A stretch of DNA of 64,000 nt from Acidobacteriota bacterium (lineage in GTDB: Bacteria > Acidobacteriota > Thermoanaerobaculia > Multivoradales > J023): positions 1 to 64,000 of the forward strand of contig JAJCXO010000035.1 of assembly GCA_029263395.1 (NCBI GenBank), in the 5' to 3' direction. Position numbers and translations under genes: made by a program. Shown here piece after piece: positions 6,386 to 61,092 of this stretch; position 1 is the stretch's first letter, and the number at the start of each line of letters is the position of its first letter. Below the pieces are notes generated by a model. It did not search any database, was not told where the DNA came from, and was given only the letters and a program-made list of their open reading frames with translations.

Positions 6386-8476
6386 TCAGGGGTCACCCAC
6401 GCTGAGTGCTCTCGTGATCTCGAGAGTTTGCAGCTGACTGGCTTGGTCGATGTAAAACTGAAACAGGTAGCGACCGGCCTGCTCGACTGCGATATCAAAA
6501 GCACCGTCTTCTGCTTGCACGGCGTAGGCGGCTTCCTGATTGTCGAGATCGATGACGCTCACGTAGGCATAACCGGAGACCTCACTCAACTTTAGACGAT
6601 GAGCGCCAGCTGGCAGTGAGGCTCGAAACGTCCGCCAGCGATGGGTTGGCGCCCACCGAATGCGAGTGGACCGCCCTTCACGCGGACGAATCTTCTTGTG
6701 AATCGGTTGGCTGGCGTCGAGCAGTTGTTGGTCTGGCACGTCGCGCGGTGGCACTTTGAACACCAGGATCCTCGGTCCCATGCGCGTTCGATGGGGGCTG
6801 ATCTCGACCACCAACTCGAGCCCTAGAACCTCACGATAGTTGCGCTCTGCGATCTTGTGGAACGGTTTGAAATGGAGTTCGGGACGCAGGAAACGCTCAA
6901 AGGCGTCACTCGCCAGGATCACAAAGTCGAAGTCGGCCGCAACCAGATCGGCAACCGAGTAGTCACCGATCCAGCGCGTCTTCTGCACTTGAAAAGCATC
7001 CAGGTCCAGGTTCGGGGTGTACCGTTCCTTGAGAATCGAGGCGCCACGAGGAAGGGTCTCCCAGATGCTTTCGGCTGCCACTTGACGGGTGCTGTCGCTA
7101 GCGTAGGCGATAGCTTGCGCCACCACCTGCATCAACGGTAGCGCCAGGCAAACGATCGCGAGGACCCACGACAATAAGAGGCGTTTTCCGAGCCAACGCT
7201 GACTCAACCATCCTGCCCAGGCGGCGATACCGGCTCCCATTAATACGGCAACGGCTGGGAGTGCTGGATAGAGGTTGCGCTCAACGACCATGTTCATCGA
7301 ACTGATGAGCGTCAGGTAGAGCACCGGGAACGGCAGCAGCCAAAAGGCTGCTGAGCGTTGCTGACGGCCGAGTACAAATAGGCCAGTCGCTCCCACCAAC
7401 ACGGCTGGCCAAGCAAAACTCTGTACGATCAAGTCAAAATAGTAGCCGGAGTTCGAGTCGACGACGACACCGATCCATCCACCCTGGGAGTACTGTCGGG
7501 CGCCGAACAAGGCGCCCATTGGACCGAAGATGTTGGCACGCGGATCGAGTGCCAGTCCGGGGGTGCTGAGCAAAAAGACCGCAAGCGACGGTAGCCCCGC
7601 CCACACCAAACCCCAAGACAATCGACGCTCAGTGATGCGCCACTTGAGATACACCGCGAGGATTGCCACTGCAACCAACCCGGCCGGATACTTGGTGCCA
7701 GCAGCGAGGCCCGCGAAGATGCCAGCCAAGGCATAGTCTCTGTAGCTCTCGCGCTGTATGAGCGCAGCCACCACCTGGAAAGACAAGGCGGCGAAGAATG
7801 CCGATGGCACGTCCGAGGTATTGACGTGGCCTCCTTGGTTGTAGACCGGTGCAAAGGCGATCAGCAGCCCGGCAAGACCACCGGCATACAGCCCCCACAG
7901 CCGCTCGGCTGCCCGAAAGACAGGCACCGCGGTCAGCCCAGCCATCACCGCAGTCACCAGCCTGGCCAACAGGCGGCAGAACACTTGCCAATCCGACACC
8001 CCGAACATCCAGCTCGACGCTGCCAGCACCGGCTTCGCAGCGAGTGATGCCAACCAGGTAACAAAAGCATCGATGTAGTACAGCAAATGGGGGTAAAAAA
8101 AACTGTCCCGCAGGTAGTTGCCTAGGTTGATCTGATTGGCATGATGTCGATAGGTGCCTTCGTCGTCATAGTAGGCGTCCGCGACTTCATGCTCGATCCC
8201 GACAACATGGATCGCCAGCGACAAGACGGTGATAGCAACCAAGGCCAAAACTCGCCGCTGTTGCCCTTGTCGCCAGGACGCGACACCACGGGCAACAAGG
8301 TAGATCCCGGTGAGCGCAATAGCGCTTACCGCCATCAGCTGACTCCATGCGATGGCAGCAGGGCGTTGCAAAACCTGCAGCCACCACAGCCCAGCAACTA
8401 TCAACCATGCAATAGCGACCGCCCAACCGAGCCAATGGATTCGGGTGGAAACCACACCGAGCGCTGGACTAGACAT
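6386..8476 (-). CDS. GT39/PMT-type membrane glycosyltransferase
   Basis: The 696-residue integral membrane protein has about a dozen predicted helices in residues 10-430 and a soluble C-terminal part. The first extracytoplasmic loop carries the acidic pair of the GT-C fold (AYYDDEGTYRHHANQI, about residue 100), followed by the family-like FFYPHLLYYIDAF. This matches ArnT/dolichyl-phosphate-mannose mannosyltransferase relatives, which transfer a sugar from a polyprenyl phosphate on the outer face of the membrane. The acceptor cannot be told. The C-terminal 150 residues look like a beta-rich domain. The helicase gene ends 19 bases before its ATG on the same strand. Confidence 0.85.
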   Translation of the reverse strand: MSSPALGVVSTRIHWLGWAVAIAWLIVAGLWWLQVLQRPAAIAWSQLMAVSAIALTGIYLVARGVASWRQGQQRRVLALVAITVLSLAIHVVGIEHEVADAYYDDEGTYRHHANQINLGNYLRDSFFYPHLLYYIDAFVTWLASLAAKPVLAASSWMFGVSDWQVFCRLLARLVTAVMAGLTAVPVFRAAERLWGLYAGGLAGLLIAFAPVYNQGGHVNTSDVPSAFFAALSFQVVAALIQRESYRDYALAGIFAGLAAGTKYPAGLVAVAILAVYLKWRITERRLSWGLVWAGLPSLAVFLLSTPGLALDPRANIFGPMGALFGARQYSQGGWIGVVVDSNSGYYFDLIVQSFAWPAVLVGATGLFVLGRQQRSAAFWLLPFPVLYLTLISSMNMVVERNLYPALPAVAVLMGAGIAAWAGWLSQRWLGKRLLLSWVLAIVCLALPLMQVVAQAIAYASDSTRQVAAESIWETLPRGASILKERYTPNLDLDAFQVQKTRWIGDYSVADLVAADFDFVILASDAFERFLRPELHFKPFHKIAERNYREVLGLELVVEISPHRTRMGPRILVFKVPPRDVPDQQLLDASQPIHKKIRPREGRSTRIRWAPTHRWRTFRASLPAGAHRLKLSEVSGYAYVSVIDLDNQEAAYAVQAEDGAFDIAVEQAGRYLFQFYIDQASQLQTLEITRALSVGDP

Positions 8477-8495
8477 GGAAGAAACGGACGCTCGA

Positions 8496-10550
8496 CTACC
8501 CGAAGTAGTCTTGGATCCGCTGGATTTGTTCGGCGTTGGCGTCGGCTCCCTCGTCTCCCTGCCAAGAGTCCTCTTCTGGAGTTGGAGCGTAGGTCTCGTC
8601 GTCTACCAACTCGTCGAGTCCCTCGATCTCGGAGACCAGCGGACTGAGCTCGGCCACTTCGAAATAGCCACCGCGGCCTTTCTGCTCTTCCGGCTTGATC
8701 AAGTAGAGGTTGCGTTTGGCCCGCGTCACTGCAACATAAAGCAGTCGGCGCTCTTCCTCGTAGTCATCAGCGTCTTGCAAGCTGTTGTAACCCGGGAAAC
8801 GCCCCATATTCATCTGTACCAGAAACACCGTGTGCCACTCCAAACCTTTCGCCGAGTGGACCGTGGACAGGGTCATCCATTCGTCCTCGCTGTCGGCTCC
8901 CAGCACCGCCGCCGGCCGACTGAAATCAGGCGGGTCGATCGCGATATCTGTCAGGAAAGCTTCCAACTCACTGTAACGTTCGGCGATCACCGCCAAGGCT
9001 TCGAGGTCTCGAATGCGTCGTGGGGCATCGTCGAACTTCTTCGGCATCCAGGTTTGATAGGTCTCGAGGGCGGTGTCGAGGCGCTCGACCAAAGGCTGAC
9101 GCGGCTTACCGATCTTTTCCAATAGGCGCTTCAATGCAACCAAGTCGCCCCCGTACTTACGTTTCGCCAACTTCGCTGCTGCCAGACTGTCCAGGGAACC
9201 GCCATCTGCAACCACCCCATCGGCCAGACCTCGTGCAGTCTTTGGACCGATACCTTCGAAAAACTGCAAGATGCGGAACCAAGCTGCCGCATCGAGCGGG
9301 TTGACGGCAAGTTTGAGCAAGGCACAAACATCTTTGATGTGTGCCGCTTCCACAAATTTGATGCCGCCAAATTTCTTGAACGGGATGTTGCGATTGTTGA
9401 GCTCTAGCTCTAACGAATTGGTGTGCCACGCCGCACGGCACAAGACCGCAATCTCTTGCAGCGGTACCCCCTCTTCACGCAGCGCAAGCACTCGATTGCA
9501 AATGTATTCAGCCTGGGTGTACTCATCGGTGGTGCGCAACAACACCGGTTTGTCGTCACCTTCGAGTTCGGTAAACAGGCGTTTTGTGTACTTCTCCCGC
9601 GCCTTCTTCAAGACCGCATTGCTGAGATCCAGAATCGGCTGCGTGCTGCGATAATTCTGCTCGAGCAAAAGGGTTTCGCAACCCTGGAAGATCTGCGGGA
9701 AGTCAATAATGTTACGGAAGTTGGCGCCGCGAAAACCATAAATCGACTGCGCATCGTCACCGACCACCATGATGTTGCGGTGGCTCGCCGCCAACAACGC
9801 TCCAATATGGGCTTGCAGGCGATTGGTATCTTGATACTCGTCGATCATGATGTAGCGATAGGTACTCGTCAACTGACGACGCACCGCTGGATGTTCGGCC
9901 AAGAGATCGCGCAGGTTGACGAGCAAGTCGTCGTAATCCATCACATTGTGCTCGCGCTTACGATCGGAATATTTCGTCCGAAGCTCGGCGAGCGCGTCGA
10001 GATCATCCACAAATTGGGGATAGTCGGCTTCGAGCAGGTCCTCCAGAGGACGGTGGGTGTTGATCTCTTTGGAGAATAGGTTGAGCAACGTCTCGGCACG
10101 AGGGAACCGTTTCCCTCGGCGCTCGTAGCCACCTTCGGTGCGAAGAATGCCGATCATGTCGACACAATCCGCACGATCGATGATCGTGAAGCTGTTGCTG
10201 TAACCGAGGCGATCGGCGTATCGCCGCAGGGTAATGTTAGCGAACGAGTGAAAGGTGCCGCCCGACACCCGATGGCACCGCTCGTCGAGCAGGCCTACCG
10301 CTCGCCGCAGCATCTCCTGGGCCGCGCGTCGGGTGAAGGTCAATAGCAGAATCGACTCGGGATGGACCCCCTCCAACACCAAGTGGGCAACCCGGTACAC
10401 CAGCGTCCGCGTCTTGCCACTGCCAGCTCCCGCAATCACCAGATGGGGCCCATCGAGAGATCGAACCGCCGAGTACTGAGCGGCGTTGAGCTCACCCTCG
10501 AAGTCGATCCGCGTATCGTCGGTAGGGGACCTAAGGTCTGATTGCTCCAT
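8496..10550 (-). CDS. ATP-dependent 3'-5' DNA helicase, UvrD/PcrA/Rep family
   Basis: The 684-residue protein has all superfamily 1A motifs in order: Q-motif LNAAQYSAV, motif I AGAGSGKTRTL, Ia TFTRRAAQEM, II MIDEYQDTN, III VVGDDAQSIYGFRGA, IV LEQNYRSTQPIL, V VHSAKGLEWHTVFL and VI LYVAVTRAKRNLY. It unwinds DNA in repair and replication restart. The acidic C-terminus lacks the Tudor-like tail typical of UvrD, so UvrD, PcrA and Rep cannot be separated here. The gene precedes the glycosyltransferase by 19 bases and may share its transcript. Confidence 0.96.
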   Translation of the reverse strand: MEQSDLRSPTDDTRIDFEGELNAAQYSAVRSLDGPHLVIAGAGSGKTRTLVYRVAHLVLEGVHPESILLLTFTRRAAQEMLRRAVGLLDERCHRVSGGTFHSFANITLRRYADRLGYSNSFTIIDRADCVDMIGILRTEGGYERRGKRFPRAETLLNLFSKEINTHRPLEDLLEADYPQFVDDLDALAELRTKYSDRKREHNVMDYDDLLVNLRDLLAEHPAVRRQLTSTYRYIMIDEYQDTNRLQAHIGALLAASHRNIMVVGDDAQSIYGFRGANFRNIIDFPQIFQGCETLLLEQNYRSTQPILDLSNAVLKKAREKYTKRLFTELEGDDKPVLLRTTDEYTQAEYICNRVLALREEGVPLQEIAVLCRAAWHTNSLELELNNRNIPFKKFGGIKFVEAAHIKDVCALLKLAVNPLDAAAWFRILQFFEGIGPKTARGLADGVVADGGSLDSLAAAKLAKRKYGGDLVALKRLLEKIGKPRQPLVERLDTALETYQTWMPKKFDDAPRRIRDLEALAVIAERYSELEAFLTDIAIDPPDFSRPAAVLGADSEDEWMTLSTVHSAKGLEWHTVFLVQMNMGRFPGYNSLQDADDYEEERRLLYVAVTRAKRNLYLIKPEEQKGRGGYFEVAELSPLVSEIEGLDELVDDETYAPTPEEDSWQGDEGADANAEQIQRIQDYFG

Positions 10551-12396: not shown

Positions 12397-12413
12397 TTGG
12401 CACCGTTGTTGCT
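12397..12413 (+). promoter_or_regulatory. Sigma-54 (RpoN) -24/-12 promoter
   Basis: TTGGCACCGTTGTTGCT matches the sigma-54 consensus YTGGCACGNNNNTTGCW at every specified base but one. The GG (12399-12400) and GC (12411-12412) have the required 10 bases between them. Transcription would start near 12424, giving a leader of about 48 bases before the ATG at 12472. An inverted repeat TAGCTCT / AGAGCTA (12415-12421, 12429-12435) straddles the predicted start. Confidence 0.75.
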
Positions 12414-26436: not shown

Positions 26437-27363
26437 TTGATCACCGGGTACGAGCCTATCCGAGCGTTTGAAACGCTATTCATAGCCACTCCCAGCCTAG
26501 CCGCGCATCTACCCGCCGCCGAACGAGCTGCTGCCAGTGGATCGCCGATCCTCATCCTGGGTGAGCCGGGAACGGGCCGCTCGACCGTCGCTCGAGCATT
26601 TCACTTCGCTAGCAGACGGCACAACAAGCCACTGGTGGAGATTGACCCAGGCGCCTTCCCCAGCACGCTCTTCGAGAGCGAGCTCTTTGGGTATCACGCA
26701 GGAGCCTTCACCGGTGCCGAAGATTCTGTCGAAGGGCGAGTATCACGCGCCGAGGGCGGCACGCTGGTCCTCGACCATGTCGAAGAAATGCCGCTTCCCG
26801 CTCAACCCAAGCTACTGAGGCTTTTGGCCGAACGTCGATATGCCCCTCTAGGTGATCAAGAGCGAGAGGCGAACGTACGGTTCATTGCTGTCGCGTCACA
26901 AGACTTCCCCGAACGCGTCAAGCGTGGCGCCTTTCGTCGAGATCTCTTTTATCGCCTTGAAGTCTTGTCCTTCCGCTTACCACCCCTCCGTGAGCGGCCG
27001 CAAGATATTCAACCGCTGATCACCTATCTGCTTTCAGACCTGGCAGAGCGTTTTGCCAGGCCGGTCCCAAACGTCAGCGAACGTGCCATGCGCTGGATGT
27101 CACGCTACCGCTGGCCAGGGAACTTGCGGCAAGTTCGCAATGTGCTCGAAAGGGCTTTTATTGTCGCCGAATCCAGCGAGATTGATCCCGCCATGCCCGA
27201 CGATGCGAATGAGCCGCGCCCGCGTCCCCTGATCGAGGTCGAGATCGATGAGATCCGACGGGCTTTGGCGTACACGCGTGGTCATCAAGGGCAGGCGGCC
27301 GAACTTCTGGGCATCAGTCGTAAGGCATTGTGGGAGAAGCGCAAACGTCACGGGATCCCGTGA
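26437..27363 (+). CDS. Receiverless sigma-54 activator (NtrC/PspF-like AAA+ protein)
   Basis: The 308-residue protein has only the AAA+ and DNA-binding parts of an NtrC-type regulator. Walker A is GEPGTGRST; the sigma-54-contacting loop is intact as GAFTGA in ELFGYHAGAFTGAEDSVEGR; the arginine-finger region is GAFRRDLFYRL; RWPGNLRQVRNVLERA follows. A C-terminal Fis-like helix-turn-helix (GHQGQAAELLGISRKALWEK) binds DNA. There is no receiver or sensor domain, so it may be constitutive or controlled by a partner, as PspF is by PspA. The start is TTG. A hairpin CGCTCT / AGAGCG (26402-26422) separates it from rsfS. Two candidate sigma-54 promoters occur elsewhere in the window. Confidence 0.9.
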   Translation: MITGYEPIRAFETLFIATPSLAAHLPAAERAAASGSPILILGEPGTGRSTVARAFHFASRRHNKPLVEIDPGAFPSTLFESELFGYHAGAFTGAEDSVEGRVSRAEGGTLVLDHVEEMPLPAQPKLLRLLAERRYAPLGDQEREANVRFIAVASQDFPERVKRGAFRRDLFYRLEVLSFRLPPLRERPQDIQPLITYLLSDLAERFARPVPNVSERAMRWMSRYRWPGNLRQVRNVLERAFIVAESSEIDPAMPDDANEPRPRPLIEVEIDEIRRALAYTRGHQGQAAELLGISRKALWEKRKRHGIP

Positions 27364-46474: not shown

Positions 46475-48040
46475 ATGGCTTTTGTCCCCGACTACAAACA
46501 CGACATATTCGTGAGCTACGCTCACGTTGATGATTTGCCTTTCCCCGGGGTGGACAAGGGCTGGGTTTCGACCCTGGTCGAGACGTTGGAGATCCTGCTG
46601 GCGCAGAAGCTCGGCCGACGGGAAGGCTATTCCCTGTGGATGGACCACCAGCTGTCACGTCACGCCGACCTGACACCAGAGATCCTCGAAAACCTGGGCA
46701 AAACCGCAACGCTGCTCGTGATTCTGTCCCCTGGCTACTTGGCCTCCGAGTGGTGTCTGCGGGAGAAGGACACGTTCCTGAGGCTGCTCCATGAAAAACA
46801 GCTCAGCGCCCAGCAACGTAGCGGCTCGAGGGTGTTCATCGTCGAGCGCGACCAAGTGGGTTTCGACAACCGGCCAGAACAATTTGCGGACCTACTCGGC
46901 TACCGATTCTGGGTCCAGGAAGGAGATGGCAGCCCACCGCGGGTTCTCGGCTCTCCCTGGCCAGACCCGAAGAATCCCGAGAACATGTCGTACTTCGACC
47001 AGCTGACCCGCCTGGCCACCAATCTGACCGACGAGCTCAAGGCGCTCAAGCAAGTGGTGGGGACAAGCCCTCAGAAACCCCAAGCCACCAAGCCATCGGA
47101 CGACACACCTGCGGCCGTAGCGCAGGGAGAGCCGCTAGTGCCCGCGGCTACCGACCCATCACGACCGATGGTTTACCTCGCCGAAGTCACGGACGATCTC
47201 GACGCCGACAGTGACGGTATGCGCCGTTATCTCGAACAGGCCGGGATCGGGGTGCTGCCGGAAACCTGGATCCCGCGGGAGCCGGACGCCTTCCGCAGCC
47301 AGGTCGCCGCCGATCTCGAACGTAGCGTCCTCTTCGTCCAGCTGCTCAGCGCCCTACCCGGCAAGCGCCCGCCCGGCATGCCTGAGGGTTACGTCCGGGC
47401 GCAATATGATCTCGCCCACCAGGCTGGCAAACCGATCCTCCAGTGGCGCAGTCGGGAGCTCGATCCTGCAACCGTTGACGATCCGGACCATCGCGCCTTC
47501 CTCGAGCTCGAGACGGTGATGGCGGTTGGCTGCGAAGAACTCAAACGCACCGTCGTGGAGCGTGCCACACCGCCCAAGCAACCAACCACCGACGGTATGA
47601 CGCCAGACGGTGTCAAGCCAGACAGTGCCACCGACGCCCTGGTCTTCATCAATGCCGAAGCCGGCGACCTTGCACTGGCCGAAGAGGTGGGCGCCCTGCT
47701 GGAGCAACGCGGCATCGCCTACGCGCTGCCGCTCGGTAGCGGCTCGCCAACCGAAGTGCGCGAGGACTTCGAGCAGAACCTGATGTTCAGTGACGCCCTG
47801 ATTCTGATTTATGGTTCGATCCACTCCAAATGGGTGCGCGACCAGCTGTTGGTCCTCCGTAAGCTGACTTGGAAGCGTGAGGAGCCGCTGCGTGCGTTGG
47901 CAGTATTGGAGTGTCCACCCGCGCCCAAAGATCCGGTCCGCCTGGCATTGCCCAACCTGATTACTCTCGAAGCCCATCAAGGCCCGAGTGACGGAGCCCT
48001 GGCACCTTTCCTCGACGCCTTGGGACCCACCAATGACTGA
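46475..48040 (+). CDS. Triple TIR-like domain protein
   Basis: The 521-residue protein begins with a clear TIR domain (MAFVPDYKHDIFVSYAH, residues 1-165). Its predicted NAD-cleaving site is intact: SEWCLRE gives E97, the position of the catalytic glutamate of TIR NADases. After a Pro-rich linker (about 190-222) come two more TIR-like alpha/beta modules: about 225-370 (VYLAEVTDDLDADSDGMRRY, LFVQLLSALPGKRPPGM, GKPILQWRSREL) and 390-521 (ALVFINAEAGDLALAEEVGA, DALILIYGSIHSKWVRDQ). These lack the WCxxE motif. The start at 46475 puts the TIR at the N-terminus; an upstream TTG is less likely. It overlaps the STAND gene by 8 bases. Confidence 0.87.
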   Translation: MAFVPDYKHDIFVSYAHVDDLPFPGVDKGWVSTLVETLEILLAQKLGRREGYSLWMDHQLSRHADLTPEILENLGKTATLLVILSPGYLASEWCLREKDTFLRLLHEKQLSAQQRSGSRVFIVERDQVGFDNRPEQFADLLGYRFWVQEGDGSPPRVLGSPWPDPKNPENMSYFDQLTRLATNLTDELKALKQVVGTSPQKPQATKPSDDTPAAVAQGEPLVPAATDPSRPMVYLAEVTDDLDADSDGMRRYLEQAGIGVLPETWIPREPDAFRSQVAADLERSVLFVQLLSALPGKRPPGMPEGYVRAQYDLAHQAGKPILQWRSRELDPATVDDPDHRAFLELETVMAVGCEELKRTVVERATPPKQPTTDGMTPDGVKPDSATDALVFINAEAGDLALAEEVGALLEQRGIAYALPLGSGSPTEVREDFEQNLMFSDALILIYGSIHSKWVRDQLLVLRKLTWKREEPLRALAVLECPPAPKDPVRLALPNLITLEAHQGPSDGALAPFLDALGPTND

Positions 48041-51000
48041 CGCCCCTTATGCTGGTCTGCGCCCGTTCCACACTGACGAGATCGATGTTTTCTTCGGACG
48101 CGAGACCCACATCGACCAACTGCTGGAGAAACTCGACCGCTCACGCTTCCTGGGCGTCGTCGGCACCTCGGGGTGTGGCAAGAGCTCGTTGATCAAGGCC
48201 GGCCTGATACCGGCCTTGCAGACCGGCTTTCTGACCAGCGCCGGAGCACGCTGGCGAGTTGCCGAAATGCGCCCCGGCGACCGGCCACTAGAGCGGTTGG
48301 CAGACGCCCTGCTCGACGACGGCGCCTTGGGGCCCGAGCGCGCCGGGCATCCGCTAGCGAATGCCCTGATCCTCGCCAGCTTGCGCCGCGGACCCCTCGG
48401 GTTGTCGGAGATCCTGAACGACACGCCCTTGCCCGAACACACCCAGCTGCTGTTGTTGGTCGACCAATTCGAAGAGATCTTCCGCTACCACCAGCACGGC
48501 GACCGTGATCGTGCGGACGCCTTTGTGGCGCTGTTGCTGCAAGCCGCGAAGCAGCCCGGATTGCCGGTTTATGTCGTGCTGACGATGCGCTCTGACTTCC
48601 TCGGCGACTGCACCCTGTTCGACGGCCTGCCCGAAGCTCTGAATGAGAGCCAATACCTAACCCCGCGGCTCGATCGCGAGCAACGGCAGTCGGCGATCGC
48701 CGGCCCCGCCAGTGTGTTCGGCGCCAGTGTCGAGCCGCGTTTGGTCAACCGGCTGCTCAACGACATGGGTGACGAGCCCGACCAGCTACCGCTGATGCAG
48801 CATCTGATGATGCGGTTGTGGAACGAGGCCCACGACACCGGTACCAAAACCCTGCATGGCCAACACATCGCCCTCACGGTTGAAGGTTACGAGGCGGTCG
48901 GCGGCTTCGCCAACGCCCTGTCGCGCCACGCTGACGAAGCCTTCGCCGAACTCGACAACAACCAGCAGCACATCGCTGAAGTGCTGTTCCGAACATTGTC
49001 GGAGCGCAGTAGCGACCAACGCGACACCCGCCGGCCGGCGCGTCTCGGCGAAATTGCAGCGGTGGCGGGCAACCACGTGACGGCGAACGCTGTAGCAACA
49101 GTGATCGACGTCTTCCGCGCCCCTGACCGCAGCTTCCTGACGCCCCCCGCGGGAGCTCCGCTAGATGCGGACTCGATCATCGACATCAGCCATGAGAGCC
49201 TGATCCGACAGTGGCAACGGCTGCGAAACTGGGTCGACGACGAAGCCGCTTCGGCCGACATCTATCGTCGCTTGGTCGAGACTGCCCGCCTGTGGCAGGC
49301 CGACCAGGCGGGACTGTGGAGTGCACCGGACCTCGACCTCGCTTTGGCCTGGAAGCAGCGCCAGCAACCGACGGCAACGTGGGCTGAGCGTTACGACGGC
49401 GGCTACGACCTGGCGATGCAGTTCCTCGCCGCAAGTGAGCGCCAACGCGACGACAACCTGGCAACAGCACAACAAGCAGAACGGCAAGTCGAACAACAGC
49501 GCCGCACCCGCCAGATGTCGATCATCCTGGGCTGCGGTTTGCTCGTCGCATTGGCCTTGGCGCTGGTGGCCTTCCGTGAGCAACGCCGGGCTCAGTTGCA
49601 AAAGCGGATCGCGATCTCTGGCCAGCTGGTCTCGCAGGCAAAGGAGAACCTCGATAGTAACCCGCAGCTCAGTCTTCTGCTCGCGGTCGAAGCGATGCGG
49701 ACCGCCCCCGAGGCGCCATCGGATTCGCCAGGCAACAGAACCCGCCAGCTGGCACCGATCGAAGCCCTGCGCCAGGCACTGAGTCTCAATGGCGGATCCT
49801 CCCTGGTCGGGCACACCAACGCCATCCGGGTCCTGGCGGTGAGCCCCGATGGCAAGTGGCTAGCAAGCGGCAGCGACGACACCACGGTCCGCCTGTGGCA
49901 ATTCGACGACCCGACCGCCGAACCGATCATCCTCAACGGTCACGGCGAAGCAGTGACCGCGCTCGCCATCAGCCCTGACAGCCGCTGGCTAGCAACCGGC
50001 GGTCATGATGACCAAGTCCGGTTCCTGGATCTGCTGGATCCCACAGCGGAGCCGATCGTTTATCAGGGTCACTTCGACTCGATCACCGCCATCACCTTTG
50101 GCCCCGACAGTCGCCGGTTCCTTACCGGCAGTCAGGACAACACCGTCCACCTCTACCAGTTGGGCGCGCCGCAAGACCAAGCCGAGCCCATCGTTCTCAC
50201 CGGGGCGGCCGACACCATCACTGCAGTGGCGATTAGTCCGGATGGACGCTGGCTGATCGCCGCCAGCGATGACAACACAACGCGGGTGTGGAGTGCCGCC
50301 CAACCTGAGGCTGCACCCTGGTTGCTGGAAGGTCACCTGGGGCCGGTACGAACCGTCGCGGTCAGTCCCAACAGCCGCTGGTTGATCACCGGTAGCTTCG
50401 ACAACACCGCCAGACGCTGGGATCTCGGCGGTCTGCGGCCGGGCAGCGAACCGCCGGACTCGATTGTGCTCGCTGGCCACCAAAGCTCGGTCAGCGCGCT
50501 CGCCATCAGCCCCGACGGTCAATGTCTGGTGACCGGCAGCCGTGACAACACGGCCCGCCTGTGGAACCTTCCGAATCTCACCGAAGACGCCTCAGCGATG
50601 GCGGTTTTCACCGGCCATCGTGGCGCGGTCAGTGCGCTCGCCATCAGCCCTGACAACCAATGGTTGATCACCGCCAGTTGGGACCAAACCGCACGCCTAT
50701 GGAACTTGAAAGGCACCGAACCGGCGGCCTCGTCAACCATCCTACGCGGCCACGACGCGCCGCTTTTCGCCCTCGCCATCAATCCCACTGGCAATCGCCT
50801 GGCGACCGCCAGCGACGACGGTACCGTCCGCTTGTGGCCGCTGGACGATGTCAACATCGATGACACGTCGATCGGCCTGCGCGGCTTCAGAGATACGGTG
50901 TCCGCCGTCGCCTACAGCCCCAACGGCCGGTGGCTCGCCACCGCCAGCGAAGACAACACCGCACGACTGTGGAATTTGAGCGTAGCCAACTTATCGGTTC

Positions 51001-52058
51001 AGCCAATCATCTTGACCGGTCATCAAAGCTCGGTCAACGCCGCCGTGATCAGTCCCGACAACCGCTGGCTCGCTACCGCCAGTGAGGACAACACAGCCCT
51101 GCTGTGGAATCTCGAGGACGCCCTGGCGACCGGCCCGATCGCCCTGCGCGGCCACGGCAACTCGATCCGCGCTCTCGCCGTCAGCCCTGACAGCCGCTGG
51201 CTAGCGACCGCCGGAGCCGGCAACGTGGCTCGACTGTGGGATCTGCAACGCGCCGACCCATCCACGCAACCGATTGTCCTGCAAGGACACCAAGATTCCC
51301 TGACCACAATAGCTATCAGCACCGACGGCACTTGGCTCGCCACCGGCAGTCAGGATCACACAGTCCGCACCTGGGACCTCGAAAGCAACCCGCTCGGCAG
51401 TGAACTTTTTACCCTGAGCGGTCACCAGGGAACGATCACCAGCCTCGCGATCATTCCGGGCAGTCGGCAGCTGGTCACCGGCAGCCGCGACCGGACCACC
51501 CGCCTGTGGGATCTCGCGACCGAAGACCCCAATGCCACCGTCAGAGTCCTCGCCGAGTTTCGGGATGTGGTCACCACGGTCGCCGTCAGCCCCGACGGCA
51601 GCTGGCTGGCTTCCGGCGACGCTGCCGGTATCAACCGGCTGTGGACGCTGCCGGACTTCTCCGGACCAGACGTGCTGACCGACCACGAACGAGCCATCAC
51701 CGCCCAGGCGTTCGCGCCAGATGGCAGCTGGCTGGCCACCGCTAGTAATGACGCCACCGTCAAGTTATGGGATCTCACCACCCGCCCGGTCTCCATCATC
51801 GGCCATTTGCGAGGTCATGCGGGCCCGATTGTGTCCCTTGCCGTCAGTCCCGATGGACTCACCCTCGCCACCGGCAGCGCCGACGATACCGCCCGCTTAT
51901 GGCATCGCGAGTTGTGGACCCTGTCGAAAGACGCGCTCATCGAGCTCGCTTGTCGAACCGCAGGTCGCAATCTCAGTCCCACCGAATGGGCCAAGTACCA
52001 GACACCAGAGCTCCCCTACCGGGAGACCTGCCCCGGACTACCCGGTCCTGGCGTGTGA
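48033..52058 (+). CDS. Membrane nSTAND1 NTPase with 16 WD40 repeats
   Basis: The 1341-residue protein begins with the nSTAND1 signature YAGLRPFHTDEIDVFFGRE and Walker A VGTSGCGKSS (K50). Walker B LLLLVDQFEE (about 143-152) and a winged-helix region to about 460 follow. A membrane helix (IILGCGLLVALALALVAF, about 510) precedes a spacer and 16 WD40 repeats (about 590-1290), enough for two propellers. The end, ACRTAGRNLSPTEWAKYQ with a CPGLP tail, is typical of this family. STAND proteins are nucleotide switches that oligomerise on ligand binding. The ATG overlaps the TIR gene's end, so the TIR protein is probably its effector. Confidence 0.92.
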   Translation: MTDAPYAGLRPFHTDEIDVFFGRETHIDQLLEKLDRSRFLGVVGTSGCGKSSLIKAGLIPALQTGFLTSAGARWRVAEMRPGDRPLERLADALLDDGALGPERAGHPLANALILASLRRGPLGLSEILNDTPLPEHTQLLLLVDQFEEIFRYHQHGDRDRADAFVALLLQAAKQPGLPVYVVLTMRSDFLGDCTLFDGLPEALNESQYLTPRLDREQRQSAIAGPASVFGASVEPRLVNRLLNDMGDEPDQLPLMQHLMMRLWNEAHDTGTKTLHGQHIALTVEGYEAVGGFANALSRHADEAFAELDNNQQHIAEVLFRTLSERSSDQRDTRRPARLGEIAAVAGNHVTANAVATVIDVFRAPDRSFLTPPAGAPLDADSIIDISHESLIRQWQRLRNWVDDEAASADIYRRLVETARLWQADQAGLWSAPDLDLALAWKQRQQPTATWAERYDGGYDLAMQFLAASERQRDDNLATAQQAERQVEQQRRTRQMSIILGCGLLVALALALVAFREQRRAQLQKRIAISGQLVSQAKENLDSNPQLSLLLAVEAMRTAPEAPSDSPGNRTRQLAPIEALRQALSLNGGSSLVGHTNAIRVLAVSPDGKWLASGSDDTTVRLWQFDDPTAEPIILNGHGEAVTALAISPDSRWLATGGHDDQVRFLDLLDPTAEPIVYQGHFDSITAITFGPDSRRFLTGSQDNTVHLYQLGAPQDQAEPIVLTGAADTITAVAISPDGRWLIAASDDNTTRVWSAAQPEAAPWLLEGHLGPVRTVAVSPNSRWLITGSFDNTARRWDLGGLRPGSEPPDSIVLAGHQSSVSALAISPDGQCLVTGSRDNTARLWNLPNLTEDASAMAVFTGHRGAVSALAISPDNQWLITASWDQTARLWNLKGTEPAASSTILRGHDAPLFALAINPTGNRLATASDDGTVRLWPLDDVNIDDTSIGLRGFRDTVSAVAYSPNGRWLATASEDNTARLWNLSVANLSVQPIILTGHQSSVNAAVISPDNRWLATASEDNTALLWNLEDALATGPIALRGHGNSIRALAVSPDSRWLATAGAGNVARLWDLQRADPSTQPIVLQGHQDSLTTIAISTDGTWLATGSQDHTVRTWDLESNPLGSELFTLSGHQGTITSLAIIPGSRQLVTGSRDRTTRLWDLATEDPNATVRVLAEFRDVVTTVAVSPDGSWLASGDAAGINRLWTLPDFSGPDVLTDHERAITAQAFAPDGSWLATASNDATVKLWDLTTRPVSIIGHLRGHAGPIVSLAVSPDGLTLATGSADDTARLWHRELWTLSKDALIELACRTAGRNLSPTEWAKYQTPELPYRETCPGLPGPGV

Positions 52059-54678: not shown

Positions 54679-57600
54679 CTACTGCAACTCGACCTCGATC
54701 ACGCCCATGGCATTGACCGTCGGCAGGCCAACCCACGACCACCACCGGCCGCTGTCGACAAAGTTCGGTGTCACTGGCACCAAGCCAAAGTCGACCGGCC
54801 CTCGCGCTGGTGAACAACCGTTGTTATCGATCGGATGACCGGGAGCCCAACTGACATAACTCGAAGCCCCGCCGACCCACTGCCATCCGCCGGCCGGCTC
54901 CACCGCGTTGACGGCGGGCTGGTGGTAACCGATCCACAACCCGTCGACTTGACCGGGCTCCTCGAAGTCACACATCGAGCACGCAACACCACCGCCGGAA
55001 CCACAGACGTTGATGCCATAACTACTGGTGTTGAAGTTGCCATAACCAGAGAAGTTGTAGACGAAGTTGCGTTCGCCCTGGTCGTTGATAGACACCAGGT
55101 AAGCGCTACGTCCCAGCTCCTGGCCGAGACTCTCGGCCACCGCTTGCGCGGCACTCCAAGAGCTCGGCTTGACCAAGTAGTAACTACGGGTGGGATCCGC
55201 GTTGCGTGGATCCGGGCCACTGGCCAGAGCGTCAGCCTCGATTTCGAACGAATCGAGCCGCTGGTCGTTGATGGCCATGCTGTTACCGAGAACCTGGAAG
55301 GCGGCATGTTTGATCTGTGGCCTGATCGGCACCATTACCGGGTCAATCACCCGGACACCGTCTAGCCACACTTCAGCAAACTGCGTGCTGACCCGATAAC
55401 GCAGCTCGAGGTCGTGCCCTACCGTCGGCACAAAGTTCGGCACCGTCACTACGCGCAGGCCGATCGTACCGTTGTAGAACAGATCCAACCGTCCCGACGA
55501 TCGCAAGATGGTCCACACCTGGCCCTTACCACCGGTCAGGGACACCGTGCCATTGGAGAACCCGATACCCATCCACTGCGCGCCGGGGCCGACAACCTCA
55601 GTGCGATCGATCCGTACCCGCGCCTTGATCCGCAGATCATCGAGCCCCGCCATATACACGTTGAGTGGATCTGACGCGGTTTCGAGATTGAACGGTATGC
55701 TGGCGCCAAAGTTGCCGGTGACCGACGAATTGGTCACCGCGTTGTTGGCGAGTCTGGTGCGTAGACTGACCCACTTCAATCGGTCGCCACCGATCTCGAC
55801 TTGCTGACCGGTCAATACACTGCCCGAAGGCCGCTGAGCATTGATGGTGAAACCGTCGAAAACCACCGGTACTACATTTGCGGGCGGCGGTGGAGCCGCT
55901 TCGGTGGTGAAGCGCCACACCGGACCGGTGGTCAGTCCGCCGGTATTCCTCTCGTCGATCCGCCAGTAGTACGTTGTACTGAAGGTCAAGGCACCGGGGT
56001 TGAAGGTTGTTCCGGCCTGGTTGCCAAGAAACTCCGTGCTGTCCGGCGTCGAGTCGGTGCCGAAGTAGACGTCGTGGCTGGTGGCTCCTGAGCCGGCATT
56101 CCAGCTCAACGTTGCACCGGTCGCGACACCGGTCGCTAAATGCGCTGGGTTCGGAGCACTAGCCTGACCCGGCGCACCAACCTGCGTCGTGAACCGCCAC
56201 ACCGGCCCCGTGGTTGTGTTGCTGGCATTCCTCTCATTGACCCGCCAGTAATAGGTCGTGCCGGCCAACAGAGTGCCGGGGTCAAAGGTTGTCGATGTCT
56301 GGTTGCTCTGGAACTCAGTTGAATCGGGCGTCGAATCGGTGCCGAAGTAGATATCGTGACTGGCGGCTCCCGAGCCGGTCGTCCAACTCAGGTTGGCGTT
56401 GAGACCCACGTTGGTAGCCAGGTGGGCCGGGCTCGGCTGGCTTGCCTGACCGAGCGCGGCGGGACCGTCACCATAGACAGCAAAGTCATCGAGTCGTGCG
56501 AAGCTGAGCTCGTTGTCCTTACGCTGGATCTGAAAACCAGCATAACGAATCACCCCAGGATAGTTGATGTCGGCCCAAGCCATCACCTCGGCGCCATCCA
56601 CCAAAACGCGCGCCTGAGTTTGGCCGTTTACACGGCGGTGCTGCAACTCGAGATCATGGTACGTTCCTGGAGCCAGACCAAGATCGAGGTTGAGCAACAC
56701 CCGACTGTTACCGTTCTCTTTGGCGATGATTCGACCGGTGCGATGAAGATACATCCAAAGCTCGGCATTGCCCATACCCGGATTGGGCAGCTCGGTGAAC
56801 GCTATAGCAGCCCATTTGCCAAAGCTCGGTACGCGGACCCGGGCCGAGACCGCAAGCGCTTCGTCACTGTCGGCCCGTATCGGATCGAGCGCCACGCTAC
56901 CACGGGCGCTGGTTCCGGTCGGCTCAATACCACCGGCTTGAATCACTGCTTGACCATTGGCGATCCAAGAACCGTTACCCACCGGCAGGAGGCGACCGTT
57001 GATGCCGCCGCTGCCGGGGGCAAGATCGTCCTCAGCCATCATCACCCTTAGCCGTGCACCGTGGGTGAACAAACTCTGGCCGTTGTCGGTGACCCGGCAC
57101 CGATACAGCCCCGCGTCGCGCCCCTCGGCGTTGTGGACCTCGAGCGTTGCTTGCTGGACACCAACCAAGTTCGGGTCGGTGGTCGGCAAGGCGCTCCAAG
57201 ACGCTCCGCCGTTGGTGCTGCGCTGCCAGCGATAGAGGTGTGAGCCGCTACCGCCCGCCGACTTGACAGTGAAGGTCGCCGTCTCACCTTCGCCGATCGT
57301 GCGGTGCCAAGGCACCTCGACGAGCATGAAAGCCGCATTGTTGCGATAGGTATTGATCCGGTTGAGGAACGTCGATCGCAGCAGACCACATTCAGGATCC
57401 TCTTGGATCCCGTCGTTGTCCTGGTCACAGTCGAACGGCCACCCCGGTACCTCGTCGTCGATGAAAACCTTGTCGCGAATGGTGAACAGAATCGCCGGCT
57501 CCAGCGGCACCATCACATGATCCCAGGCACGACCAAAATCCGCCGGTGTCATCACACCACCCCGGATGTACTCGGGTCGGAAAAAGGCACCAAAAACCTT

Positions 57601-59169
57601 TCCCTGCTCTTGAACCAGGCGGCGGGCGACCGTCCCTTGACCTATGTGAGGGTAGACGAACAGTGGATCTACGATGGCCTGTTGTTCGAGTTGGGCATCG
57701 GTCAAGTTGTTCCACGCGCTGTTGGGCGGCAGAGTGCCTGTAGCGGTTTCATGCACCAAGCCGGCGAGCCACGGGCTCTTCATCAGAGTAACCATGTCGA
57801 CCCCGCGTTGTGACGGATCGAGGATCACGTCAAAATGCTGCCAGGCTTTGAAGTCGATCGTCTCGTCTTGCAACGGGCCGTTGAGCGTCTTGCGATACTT
57901 GATGGTGACCGGTTGGTCGAAACGGCCAGGCATGCCGTACACACCCGGGAATTGAAAATAGACCGATCCCTTGAAGTCGGGATTGCCCAGTTGAGCTTTA
58001 CCAACCGTTTCAGCAATCTCCTTCGCAAACTCACTCCACGTCTGGTAACACCACTCACCCCACAGCCGCCAATAGTTGGCTACCGACGCGCCATAGAGGG
58101 TTCGTTGTTGTGCCACAGACGGCAGCCCTGGATCGGTAGGCAACGGCACAAGCTGCACGTGGCTCGCCAGCTGCAAGCAGTTATTGGTCCCACTGCAGTG
58201 ATTGAGCTCGCTGCGATCCACCGGCAGCTTCAGGATTTCGGTGAAACCCTGGGATCGAGTGTAGGCCACGAAACTATCTTTGGCGCTGACGGAGAATAGC
58301 GGTGTCATGCGCTTGGCCGGTTGCAGGCCGTGATAGGCAGGATCGTCATCGAGCAGCCTTTGAGCATGGGTTCGGCTGGAGCCGTTGGCGCGCCGGATTT
58401 GAACCTGCCGGCAGGGTCCAGGAATGACATTTGGATCACAGATCGTGCCGTTGTCCATCGCCACACCCCAGGCGTCAGCCTGGCCGCCACCACTGAGGGT
58501 GTCTTCGCCAAACATGAAGTAACCGCGCAGTGGGCCAACCGACTCGCTGAGTCCCCCATGATCGAAAGCCACCGACAGCTGGTCCAGCAGGTCTTCAACA
58601 GCCATGCGATTGGTAATGTCCAAATGTTCGCCGCTGAAACCGATGCGTGAGCCTTCAGTGCCCCGTAGATCCGGATTACGCTGCCAAAGACGACCGAGGG
58701 AATCGAGCGACTGGGCTCGATACCACCCTGGTTGTTGTGCCAGGTCACCCGGATCAAAGAATCCGGGAAAAGATGGGAAACTAAAAAAACCGAAGTAGTC
58801 CGTACCCGTCAGAGCCATCGCGGTTGACACATCGCGGACTTGCTGGCGGCCATTGGTGGCCTCTGGATCAGGGCCAGTGATGTAATAGTTGCCGATCTCG
58901 CTTGCGTCGAAACCGTTGTCATAAATTATTTGGGAAAGGTTTTGTTTCTTGTTGAGAGTGTTGTAAGAATTATTGGTCGAGTCACCGTCCGTATTGGTGA
59001 AGGAGCCTTGCATGGCAGTCACCTGGGCGAACACTGGCATCGAACAGACTAACAAGGACAAAACAAGAAACCGAAACAAGAACGTTTTGAGAACGTTAGG
59101 CGTCAAGACTGTGACGAAACCGTAGGGACTAAGTGCCCTGGATCTCTTCGCGGCAGCGAAAGCTTGCAT
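54679..59169 (-). CDS. Large secreted multidomain protein ending in a C-type lectin-like domain
   Basis: The 1496-residue protein has a signal peptide with a long basic leader (hydrophobic run LFRFLVLSLLVCSMPVFAQ). About 50-640 is an unrecognised domain with features of a secreted alpha/beta enzyme, perhaps a glycoside hydrolase (RLWGEWCYQTWSEFAKEIAE, CDQDNDGIQEDPEC). Then an Ig-like domain (about 640-740, ending GLYRCRVTDNG), a laminin-G-like region, two near-identical fibronectin-like repeats (SHDIYFGTDSTPDSTEF, TTYYWRVNERN), a second laminin-G-like region, and a C-type lectin-like domain (SYYLVKPSSWSAAQAVAES to the end). It is probably a surface carbohydrate-binding or degrading protein. 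A sigma-54 promoter precedes it. Confidence 0.85.
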   Translation of the reverse strand: MQAFAAAKRSRALSPYGFVTVLTPNVLKTFLFRFLVLSLLVCSMPVFAQVTAMQGSFTNTDGDSTNNSYNTLNKKQNLSQIIYDNGFDASEIGNYYITGPDPEATNGRQQVRDVSTAMALTGTDYFGFFSFPSFPGFFDPGDLAQQPGWYRAQSLDSLGRLWQRNPDLRGTEGSRIGFSGEHLDITNRMAVEDLLDQLSVAFDHGGLSESVGPLRGYFMFGEDTLSGGGQADAWGVAMDNGTICDPNVIPGPCRQVQIRRANGSSRTHAQRLLDDDPAYHGLQPAKRMTPLFSVSAKDSFVAYTRSQGFTEILKLPVDRSELNHCSGTNNCLQLASHVQLVPLPTDPGLPSVAQQRTLYGASVANYWRLWGEWCYQTWSEFAKEIAETVGKAQLGNPDFKGSVYFQFPGVYGMPGRFDQPVTIKYRKTLNGPLQDETIDFKAWQHFDVILDPSQRGVDMVTLMKSPWLAGLVHETATGTLPPNSAWNNLTDAQLEQQAIVDPLFVYPHIGQGTVARRLVQEQGKVFGAFFRPEYIRGGVMTPADFGRAWDHVMVPLEPAILFTIRDKVFIDDEVPGWPFDCDQDNDGIQEDPECGLLRSTFLNRINTYRNNAAFMLVEVPWHRTIGEGETATFTVKSAGGSGSHLYRWQRSTNGGASWSALPTTDPNLVGVQQATLEVHNAEGRDAGLYRCRVTDNGQSLFTHGARLRVMMAEDDLAPGSGGINGRLLPVGNGSWIANGQAVIQAGGIEPTGTSARGSVALDPIRADSDEALAVSARVRVPSFGKWAAIAFTELPNPGMGNAELWMYLHRTGRIIAKENGNSRVLLNLDLGLAPGTYHDLELQHRRVNGQTQARVLVDGAEVMAWADINYPGVIRYAGFQIQRKDNELSFARLDDFAVYGDGPAALGQASQPSPAHLATNVGLNANLSWTTGSGAASHDIYFGTDSTPDSTEFQSNQTSTTFDPGTLLAGTTYYWRVNERNASNTTTGPVWRFTTQVGAPGQASAPNPAHLATGVATGATLSWNAGSGATSHDVYFGTDSTPDSTEFLGNQAGTTFNPGALTFSTTYYWRIDERNTGGLTTGPVWRFTTEAAPPPPANVVPVVFDGFTINAQRPSGSVLTGQQVEIGGDRLKWVSLRTRLANNAVTNSSVTGNFGASIPFNLETASDPLNVYMAGLDDLRIKARVRIDRTEVVGPGAQWMGIGFSNGTVSLTGGKGQVWTILRSSGRLDLFYNGTIGLRVVTVPNFVPTVGHDLELRYRVSTQFAEVWLDGVRVIDPVMVPIRPQIKHAAFQVLGNSMAINDQRLDSFEIEADALASGPDPRNADPTRSYYLVKPSSWSAAQAVAESLGQELGRSAYLVSINDQGERNFVYNFSGYGNFNTSSYGINVCGSGGGVACSMCDFEEPGQVDGLWIGYHQPAVNAVEPAGGWQWVGGASSYVSWAPGHPIDNNGCSPARGPVDFGLVPVTPNFVDSGRWWSWVGLPTVNAMGVIEVELQ

Positions 59170-59234
59170 GTAGATATCTCCAAGAGTTGTTGCTTACGTT
59201 GATGAGAACCTCATCTAACATCACAACCCTAGAG

Positions 59235-59251
59235 AGCAAGGTAGGTGCCAA
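59235..59251 (-). promoter_or_regulatory. Sigma-54 promoter of the large secreted protein gene
   Basis: On the minus strand TTGGCACCTACCTTGCT differs from the sigma-54 consensus at one specified position. The GG and GC are exactly 10 bases apart. Transcription would begin near 59224, leaving a leader of about 55 bases before the ATG at 59169, which has GGAG upstream. The layout closely copies that of the 12472 gene. Confidence 0.75.
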
Positions 59252-59356
59252 ACGATCACAACCATGGATCGTACGGCACCTCGACACGCCGCCCCGCCGC
59301 AGGTCCCATTGGCGTCTCGAGGACAGCAATTGACCCCTGCTCCACAATACGCTGGC

Positions 59357-59395
59357 TGGCTCAGATTTGGAGCCAGTGGCTCAGGTTTGGAGCCT
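59357..59395. promoter_or_regulatory. Tandem palindromes, candidate enhancer sites
   Basis: TGGCTCAGATTTGGAGCCA and TGGCTCAGGTTTGGAGCC follow directly after each other with a 20-base period. Each is a palindrome with TGGCTC/GAGCCA-type arms. They lie about 130-170 bases upstream of the predicted sigma-54 start, where NtrC-type activators normally bind as paired dimers. The remaining gap 59170-59572 shows nothing else. Confidence 0.6.
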
Positions 59396-59572: not shown

Positions 59573-60910
59573 TCAACGTGGGGACCGAGCCCGCATCACA
59601 TCAGCGATGGCTCGAGCCACGAGCTTGTTGCCAACGGGCGTCAGATGGACAGGATCGGCCCAGGCGCTGTCGTCGACCGGATCGAGGACGCCGGTCAGCA
59701 GATGCAGATGTTCGAGGCGAGCAGCGTGGTGCTCAACCTCTTCATAAGCGGCAGCAAGCACACGGTCGAGATCAACCGCACGGGCGGAGCGAGGCGCCGC
59801 GGCTTCTCGATCGAGCGTCAAGGCCTGCACTGGCTGCCAGAAGCAATCGATCTCGAAACCGTATTCCTGGGACATCCCGTCCAGCAACCGGTAACTGCCG
59901 AGGTAGTTATCGACGATCGCCCGCGCTAGCTCGATCCGCTCGCCGTCACTCAGTGGCTCGACCTGTGGCGGCGCCGGCAGCAGCGAACGCAGCAACAACA
60001 GGGTCCGCAAGCTGGCCAGCCAGGTCATGAAGGGGCGCTCCAATCGGTTGGCGATGTGAGTCTCGGCATAATGCCCTCCAACCGCACCCGCCAGGGCGAC
60101 CGCAACGTCGTTGAAGCCATGGTAGAAGACCACTCGATCGGGCACCCGGTCGGCCTGCAGTTCGAGCATCAGACGAATCAGGCTCTGGGTCGCGACATGG
60201 CCGCGCTCACCCAAGTTCTCGACCCGCACCGGACGTTCGAGCCCTTGAGCCAGCTCAACTTGCAAAAACGCCGGAAGGGTCCCGTCGTCGGGAGCGCCAT
60301 GGCCCCACAGGGCTGAGCCACCAAAGGCGAAAACCGTCTCGAAATCCGCATCCGCACGGTCGCTGCCGGTAGCGTCGCCGTTCGATCCTGTCGGTGTCAA
60401 CGTCCGTCGCACTCCCCGGTCGTCGATACGTAGAGTTTCACCCTGGAACGGCCGCGTGTGCCACAGCGTGTAGGGGCTGTAATCGAGTTGCTTCTTGACC
60501 AGTTCGAACTCTTGCCAATGCTGCCGCGCCCAAGGTTGCGTCGCATAGTAGGCGCCACGGTCGCCGGGGCTCGGCAATGGGGCACGACGATCGATCAGCC
60601 ACCCGACAAGCTCGACGCCAGCGATGAGCAGGAACAGATTGAAGACCGCAAACGCCGCCAAGCGGTAGCCATCTGCCAGAACCCTCCACCCTGGCCGGAA
60701 CCAACGTCGGACGCGCGCCGTGCGCACCAGCAAGCCAGCCGCCATCAACACCAGACCGAGCCCGACCAACAACAGCTGCCCGGTTCCGAATCCACGACGG
60801 GTACCGGCACCGACCAAATCGAGCAATGGCGCCAAAACCACTAACGCCAGACCAACTACGATGGCCGCCGCGGCCACACCGTTTGTAGTGCTGGAATTTT
60901 CGTCTTGCAT
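59573..60910 (-). CDS. Membrane-anchored SGNH/GDSL-like hydrolase
   Basis: The 445-residue protein has three to four N-terminal membrane helices (VAAAAIVVGLALVVLAPLLD, LLLVGLGLVLMAAGLLV, LAAFAVFNLFLLIAGVELVG), then an SGNH domain. S199 in FAFGGSALWGHG, G and N in the YHGFNDVAVALAG block and DPVHLTPVGNKLVARAI (DxxH) fit the catalytic set. Such proteins deacylate or modify surface glycans or lipids. The ATG at 60910 is chosen because the longer GTG version would start inside a terminator-like hairpin. The ribosome site is weak. Confidence 0.85.
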   Translation of the reverse strand: MQDENSSTTNGVAAAAIVVGLALVVLAPLLDLVGAGTRRGFGTGQLLLVGLGLVLMAAGLLVRTARVRRWFRPGWRVLADGYRLAAFAVFNLFLLIAGVELVGWLIDRRAPLPSPGDRGAYYATQPWARQHWQEFELVKKQLDYSPYTLWHTRPFQGETLRIDDRGVRRTLTPTGSNGDATGSDRADADFETVFAFGGSALWGHGAPDDGTLPAFLQVELAQGLERPVRVENLGERGHVATQSLIRLMLELQADRVPDRVVFYHGFNDVAVALAGAVGGHYAETHIANRLERPFMTWLASLRTLLLLRSLLPAPPQVEPLSDGERIELARAIVDNYLGSYRLLDGMSQEYGFEIDCFWQPVQALTLDREAAAPRSARAVDLDRVLAAAYEEVEHHAARLEHLHLLTGVLDPVDDSAWADPVHLTPVGNKLVARAIADVMRARSPR

Positions 60911-60931
60911 GGTCACGGATTGATCGAGAAC

Positions 60932-60959
60932 GAGCCGACGGAGTATACGCCGTCGGCTC
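60932..60959 (-). terminator. Perfect 10-bp hairpin upstream of the SGNH gene
   Basis: GAGCCGACGG (60932-60941) and CCGTCGGCTC (60950-60959) are exact complements with an 8-base loop. On the minus strand no long U-run follows. It lies 20 bases before the SGNH start and about 130 bases after the IPTL-tailed gene, so it may end the upstream transcript or act as an attenuator. Confidence 0.6.
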
Positions 60960-61092
60960 ACATCGCGCTGTCAAACCGACCAGTCCATGACTGTCGTCCA
61001 GCAGCTGTCTCGACACCCGGGTAACGAATCTGAGTCAGTCCGATGTCAACGTCGGCCGAGATCATCCCGACCTATGCCGCACCGGCCGAGAA

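Follow-up and report, generated by a model that had tools for sequence, protein, structure and literature searches.

We found that the gene for a 1496-residue exported protein in the window, i.e., the whole 64,000-nucleotide stretch of Acidobacteriota DNA analysed here, is preceded by a near-consensus -24/-12 element and, further upstream, by two tandem 19-bp dyads. This arrangement is likely to represent a sigma-54-dependent promoter with an upstream bEBP enhancer built from two phased dyads. Promoter, dyads, the recurrence of the pair before sigma-54 elements and its adjacency to genes for FHA-domain bEBPs can all be read directly from the DNA. The first-pass annotation, which had proposed an NtrC-type activator at a sigma-54 promoter, was right in kind: matching pairs stand ahead of sigma-54-type elements at four further loci. 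The adjacent bEBPs belong to a subfamily that carries GVATGV in place of the GAFTGA loop, and whether this subfamily is the activator of the dyad pair appears to us about evenly balanced.

The probable promoter and tandem dyads of the 1496-residue protein gene

The element TTGGCACCTACCTTGCT combines a -24 GG and a -12 GC at fixed spacing, close to the consensus YTGGCACGNNNNTTGCW, and lies exactly where it had first been reported, with the ATG of the 1496-aa frame (59169) about 65 nt downstream (Table 1). Its claimed near-identity to the promoter at 12397 also holds, as the -24/-12 sequence is common to both: exact TGGCACNNNNNTTGC occurs at only two places in the 64 kb window (12398 and 59236), and TGGCACN5TTGC without mismatch matches at the same two. 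With a weighted sigma-54 pattern, scored by a consensus-weight scheme of our own, two window sites reach at least 15.6, compared with about 0.2 expected from Markov-resampled sequence, and the 59235 and 12397 promoters are the only sites of at least 13.5 in the 64 kb (random rate 0.0026 per strand-kb). Genome-wide (10.68 Mb, 291 contigs), TTGGCACN5TTGC is present at 13 sites and its reversed control at 8. Although the window is 88% coding, a crude gene caller places 12 of the 13 TTGGCACN5TTGC sites between genes, and an open frame or called gene in the matching orientation lies downstream of nearly every one. Gene calls were crude throughout this analysis. The genome encodes rpoN once (PF04552 match at C278, E 1.3e-65). 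Because the element is near consensus, rare in the window and of a type that is mostly intergenic genome-wide, and because rpoN is present, the sigma-54 promoter at 59235-59251 is very probably real. Upstream of the 12397 promoter we found no dyads, and that promoter therefore probably answers to a different activator.

The window dyads, each of the form TGGCTC-N7-GAGCCA with arms of 5-7 bp, stand in tandem with a period of 20 bp. The proximal dyad is separated from the -24 element by 105 bp, and the pair extends from about -132 to -170 relative to the predicted start site, in agreement with the palindromes originally described at about 130-170 bases upstream. Taken singly, TGGCTC-N7-GAGCC stays close to chance (20 strand matches versus 15 in the control), while the phased pair is above it. 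Single sites across the genome were rejected as regulon members, being mostly intragenic and without sigma-54 sites, and those found with up to three mismatches were at background. Exact TGGCTCCAAATCTGAGCCA has two matches across 85,000 genomes, both within unrelated coding genes and thus ascribed to chance. An insertion-sequence end was likewise discarded: plasmids gave no DNA resembling the region, and the genome carries it only once.

The 1496-aa protein has a signal-peptide-like N-terminus. Its initial designation as lectin-type was not confirmed by Pfam, which gives only a weak, sub-threshold Ig domain (625-694); an Fn3-like region at about 900-1090 was weakly matched in Pfam and PDB searches. 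No strong sigma-54 site was found upstream of the orthologs of this gene in two other genomes (G006 and G010), and the control is therefore not conserved with the gene. The window also encodes a large nSTAND NTPase with about 15 WD40 repeats (48033-52058).

Table 1. Features of the window and dyad pairs at other loci (G013, a second genome; all other entries, this genome)
Feature	Sequence	Position	Strand	Remark
Gene of the 1496-aa exported protein		54679..59169	-	predicted to be driven by the promoter at 59235-59251
Likely ribosome-binding site	GGAG	59178..59181	-	read from sequence
Sigma-54 -24/-12 promoter (very probable)	TTGGCACCTACCTTGCT	59235..59251	-	near consensus; predicted start site ~59225
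Proximal dyad	TGGCTCCAAATCTGAGCCA	59357..59375	-	putative activator site
Distal dyad	AGGCTCCAAACCTGAGCCA	59377..59395	-	20 bp from proximal dyad
Upstream gene, weak GDSL-lipase match		59573..60961	-	stop ~178 bp before distal dyad
Second strong sigma-54 promoter	TTGGCACCGTTGTTGCT	12397..12413	+	near-perfect; ahead of a 181-aa frame; not in regulon
bEBP proposed earlier as activator		26437..27363	+	GAFTGA-type; no receiver domain
Dyad pair	TGGCTAACTTTCTGAGCCA-CC-TGGCTCCATTGTAGAGCCA	C104:77198		266 bp before sigma-54 CCGGCACGACTGTTGCT, same direction
Dyad pair	TGGCTCAGTCATGAAGCCA-C-CGGCTCCGATATAGCGCCA	C274:23047		59 bp before GCGGCACGAGAATTGCC
Dyad pair	TGGCTCCAAGCTGAAGCCA-GC-TGGCTCCAATCTGGAGCCA	G013:C358:4096		97 bp before CTGGCATTACCCTTGCT
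Dyad pair	CGGCTCCAAAGTTGAGCCA-GC-TGGCTCCGAGGCGGCTCCA	G013:C337:28226		164 bp before CGGGCACGCCCCTTGCT

Recurrence of the dyad pair

The genome search for further pairs near RpoN promoters that the first-pass annotation had suggested yielded two more loci, C104 and C274. GGCTN9AGCC occurring twice with a gap of 0-10 matches only the window and C104:77199 in this genome. With three mismatches allowed, a period-21 search over 149 genomes of the class found C104, two places in G013 (same order, another family), one intragenic site in G006 and one repeat array in G026, while a period-20 search over 72 genomes of the order found the window and C274:23047 only. Reversed-pattern controls gave no matches in the 149 and in the 72 genomes. 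The G006 pair (on C34) lies inside a gene and was set aside as chance, and the tandem arrays of G026 were rejected as regulon members, since they are GC-rich repeat. These G026 arrays (L087-L094), which are intergenic, consist of 21-bp GGCTC-N7-GAGCC repeats and occur on several contigs, are lineage-specific. All other pairs are intergenic and each stands ahead of a sigma-54-type element, giving five pair loci in total, three in this genome and two in G013.

A pair matrix trained on the window, C104 and G013 sites and scanned over 1.24 Mb of the genome scored 48.8 at the window, 41.5 at C104 and 34.4 at C274, with the next best match at 17.5; as C274 had been left out of the training set, it represents an independent match. 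An unbiased tandem-dyad detector ranked the window and C104 pairs first. The sigma-54-type elements downstream of the pairs score 14.3 (C104), 12.1 (C274), 13.7 (G013:C358) and 14.3 (G013:C337), at distances of 59-266 bp from the pair. Of 3885 intergenic positions taken as controls, 5.9% lie within 350 bp, in either direction, of a site scoring at least 13.5 and 9.3% of one scoring at least 12, and the product for all four unselected pair loci having a sigma-54-type site by chance is about 2e-5. In their arrangement the dyads match an upstream activating sequence, lying upstream and recurring at sigma-54 promoters (five loci, two genomes).

Downstream of these elements, the C104 site CCGGCACGACTGTTGCT is followed by an exported 155-aa Cys-rich protein, the C274 pair by a wHTH regulator, a split lantibiotic dehydratase and a LanC-like protein, and the G013:C337 pair by a 154-aa protein and then a membrane-GAF-Ser/Thr kinase. 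The C274 region as a whole (L150 8497-17619, G000:C274) resembles a lanthipeptide-type cluster, in which an FHA-bEBP, the wHTH gene, split Lant_dehydr_N/C and the LanC-like gene occur together with a sulfotransferase-like gene upstream.

Candidate activators and alternative readings

About 59 bEBP-type AAA domains are encoded in the genome. The bEBP at 26437, originally named as activator, is one of these; it lies in a housekeeping neighbourhood (Obg- and NadD-like genes, by reading) with no TGGCTC-type dyads nearby, nothing links it to the dyads, and two of the pairs adjoin FHA-type bEBP genes instead; this assignment is therefore not supported. The C274 pair starts 117 bp past the stop of a gene for an FHA-AAA-HTH8 bEBP, in which Pfam identifies the Sigma54_activat AAA+ domain and the Fis-type HTH (PF00158 2.4e-57, PF02954 2e-12) as well as FHA (2.7e-16). 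Its closest relative in G013 is an FHA-bEBP that is convergent to the C358 pair, about 1 kb away. At the GAFTGA position, the C274 and C358-adjacent bEBPs read GVATGV or GAATGV. As the GAFTGA loop is absent from the C274 protein, with GVATGV in its place, we regard the latter as a bEBP-like candidate and do not file it as a proven sigma-54 activator.

A 79% ortholog of the C274 bEBP in G001, a genome of the same genus, is followed by a TGGCTCC array with a 20-bp period. This array, built from the 20-bp direct repeat GGTGGCTCCGCGATGAATCT, begins directly after the ortholog's stop and runs into the contig end (L170, end of G001:C583). In its DNA-binding domain, a TPR-type GVATGV bEBP at C30 is slightly closer to the G013 protein than the C274 bEBP is; in the AAA-HTH comparison, C30 and C274 are about equal.

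The GVATGV class accounts for about 12 of the 38 bEBPs read in this genome, and Pfam scans of ten members (nine from this genome, one from G013) found FHA in nine and TPR in one. The literature treats GAFTGA as an essential or invariant feature of sigma-54 activators (PMC3162934, PMC12316311, PMC7175178). For NtrC proteins that lack GAFTGA, action at sigma-70 promoters has been reported (PMC10274813). Sigma-54-type sites of at least 13 lie within 800 bp of 5 of the 12 class members, compared with 12.4% of other genes (p 0.013); the count for GAFTGA bEBPs is 13 of 26. Near one class member, at C254, a sigma-54 site directed into the gene of a 62-aa exported Cys-rich protein has a tandem dyad of different sequence (TGCCCAA..TTGGCA twice, period 21) 110 bp upstream of it. 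The nearby sites and the C254 locus support, but do not prove, that the GVATGV class works with sigma-54. That these mostly FHA-bearing proteins, an expanded subfamily, are true sigma-54 activators, which act from phased tandem dyads to switch on a RiPP-type cluster and genes for exported proteins, is a tentative proposal that we rate somewhat short of an even chance.

In the C254 region (L149 8226-8391 and 8634-10550, G000:C254), a GVATGV FHA-bEBP is divergent from the tandem dyad, TGCCCAATCTATTGGCA twice at period 21. At G000:C169 (L154, ~8440-8850), a weak tandem dyad and a sigma-54-like element also precede a small exported Cys-rich protein, and a GTASGV-type FHA-bEBP lies about 1 kb away. 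Small exported Cys-rich ORFs were not enriched near GVATGV bEBPs (1 of 11 versus 3 of 27) in a count by a crude script that missed one known case.

The same sigma-54/enhancer architecture could also be served by a conventional GAFTGA-type bEBP, either that at 26437 or another, with the FHA-bEBP neighbours being co-regulated in their turn or serving as accessory or repressing subunits. The genome has roughly 59 bEBPs, and the activators known so far need GAFTGA (PMC7175178); however, the stretches read around the five pairs showed no GAFTGA-type bEBP gene, and both adjacent bEBPs are of the FHA/GVATGV subfamily. We consider a conventional reader possible, if rather doubtful. It is highly improbable that the dyads are RNA stem-loops which end the upstream transcript, as terminator or 3' stabiliser, and are unrelated to the promoter. 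Each dyad could fold into a 5-7 bp hairpin, and the pair follows a same-strand gene stop at C104, G013:C358 and C274, but there is no T-run after the pair in the window, C104 and C358, the upstream gene is divergent at G013:C337, and neither the 20/21-bp phase nor the consistent downstream sigma-54 element would be explained. Dispersed or tandem repeat copies without regulatory role are similarly hard to credit: G026, of the same order, has its GC-rich 21-bp GGCTC-N7-GAGCC arrays at several intergenic places, only one of them with a strong sigma-54 site in the vicinity, about 800 bp off, and the window copies are alike at 17 of 19 positions, as expected from recent duplication. Yet only three pairs were found in this genome; their flanks are unrelated, their centres have diverged, and each of them stands ahead of a sigma-54-type element.

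For the promoter with a phased enhancer, which we favour, a mechanism can be proposed in which two dimers of one bEBP would bind the dyads (period 20-21 bp) side by side on one helix face, assemble the AAA+ ring, and reach the closed sigma-54 polymerase, about 105 bp downstream, through a DNA loop so as to open it. The most likely activator would be an FHA-AAA-HTH8 bEBP of the GVATGV subfamily, with the C274 gene as first candidate, and the FHA domain would presumably switch it via a Thr-phosphorylated partner. Dyad binding, looping, activator identity and phospho-control are what we infer from the arrangement of the sites. The resulting regulon would be small and its products mostly exported, comprising the 1496-aa protein, the small exported Cys-rich protein at C104, the C274 locus, with a wHTH gene ahead of lanthipeptide-type genes, and the two G013 loci.

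Significance and relation to known systems

One suspected promoter has thereby grown into a small regulon that can be tested, with its operator defined and a candidate for its activator. The presence of a GAFTGA-less bEBP subfamily beside sigma-54 promoters offers a direct test of the GAFTGA requirement. Sigma-54 surveys that filter for GAFTGA have systematically left out proteins of this kind (PMC3162934, PMC12316311). Sigma-54 has been viewed as controlling the cell exterior (PMC3162934), with which the exported products are consistent. TGGCTC together with sigma-54 or an enhancer was not found among the best-ranked open-access literature, and may be described elsewhere.

The window dyads resemble NtrC-type upstream activating sequences, i.e., paired dyads of about 17-19 bp, about two helical turns apart and roughly 100-170 bp upstream of -24/-12, whereas the candidate activator, unlike those of NtrC-type systems, is an FHA-bEBP without receiver domain. 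Tandem-repeat bEBP sites upstream of sigma-54 promoters, biosynthetic clusters included, are also known for Nla28 of Myxococcus xanthus (PMC7910581), and one pair here, in parallel, heads a lanthipeptide-type cluster. In contrast to the present dyads and candidate, Nla28 recognises the half site CT(C/G)CG(C/G)AG and is a receiver-domain response regulator (PMC7910581). A bEBP-like AAA+ domain without the canonical loop is shared with the GAFTGA-less NtrC proteins of Caulobacter and Rhodobacter, VpsR, TyrR and HupR; in the Caulobacter and Rhodobacter proteins the loop is deleted, whereas here its length is kept as GVATGV. The novel, as yet unproven, element would be a GAFTGA-less bEBP that works on sigma-54: several GAFTGA-less bEBPs work on sigma-70 promoters (PMC10274813), whereas the sites neighbouring the proteins described here precede sigma-54-type promoters.
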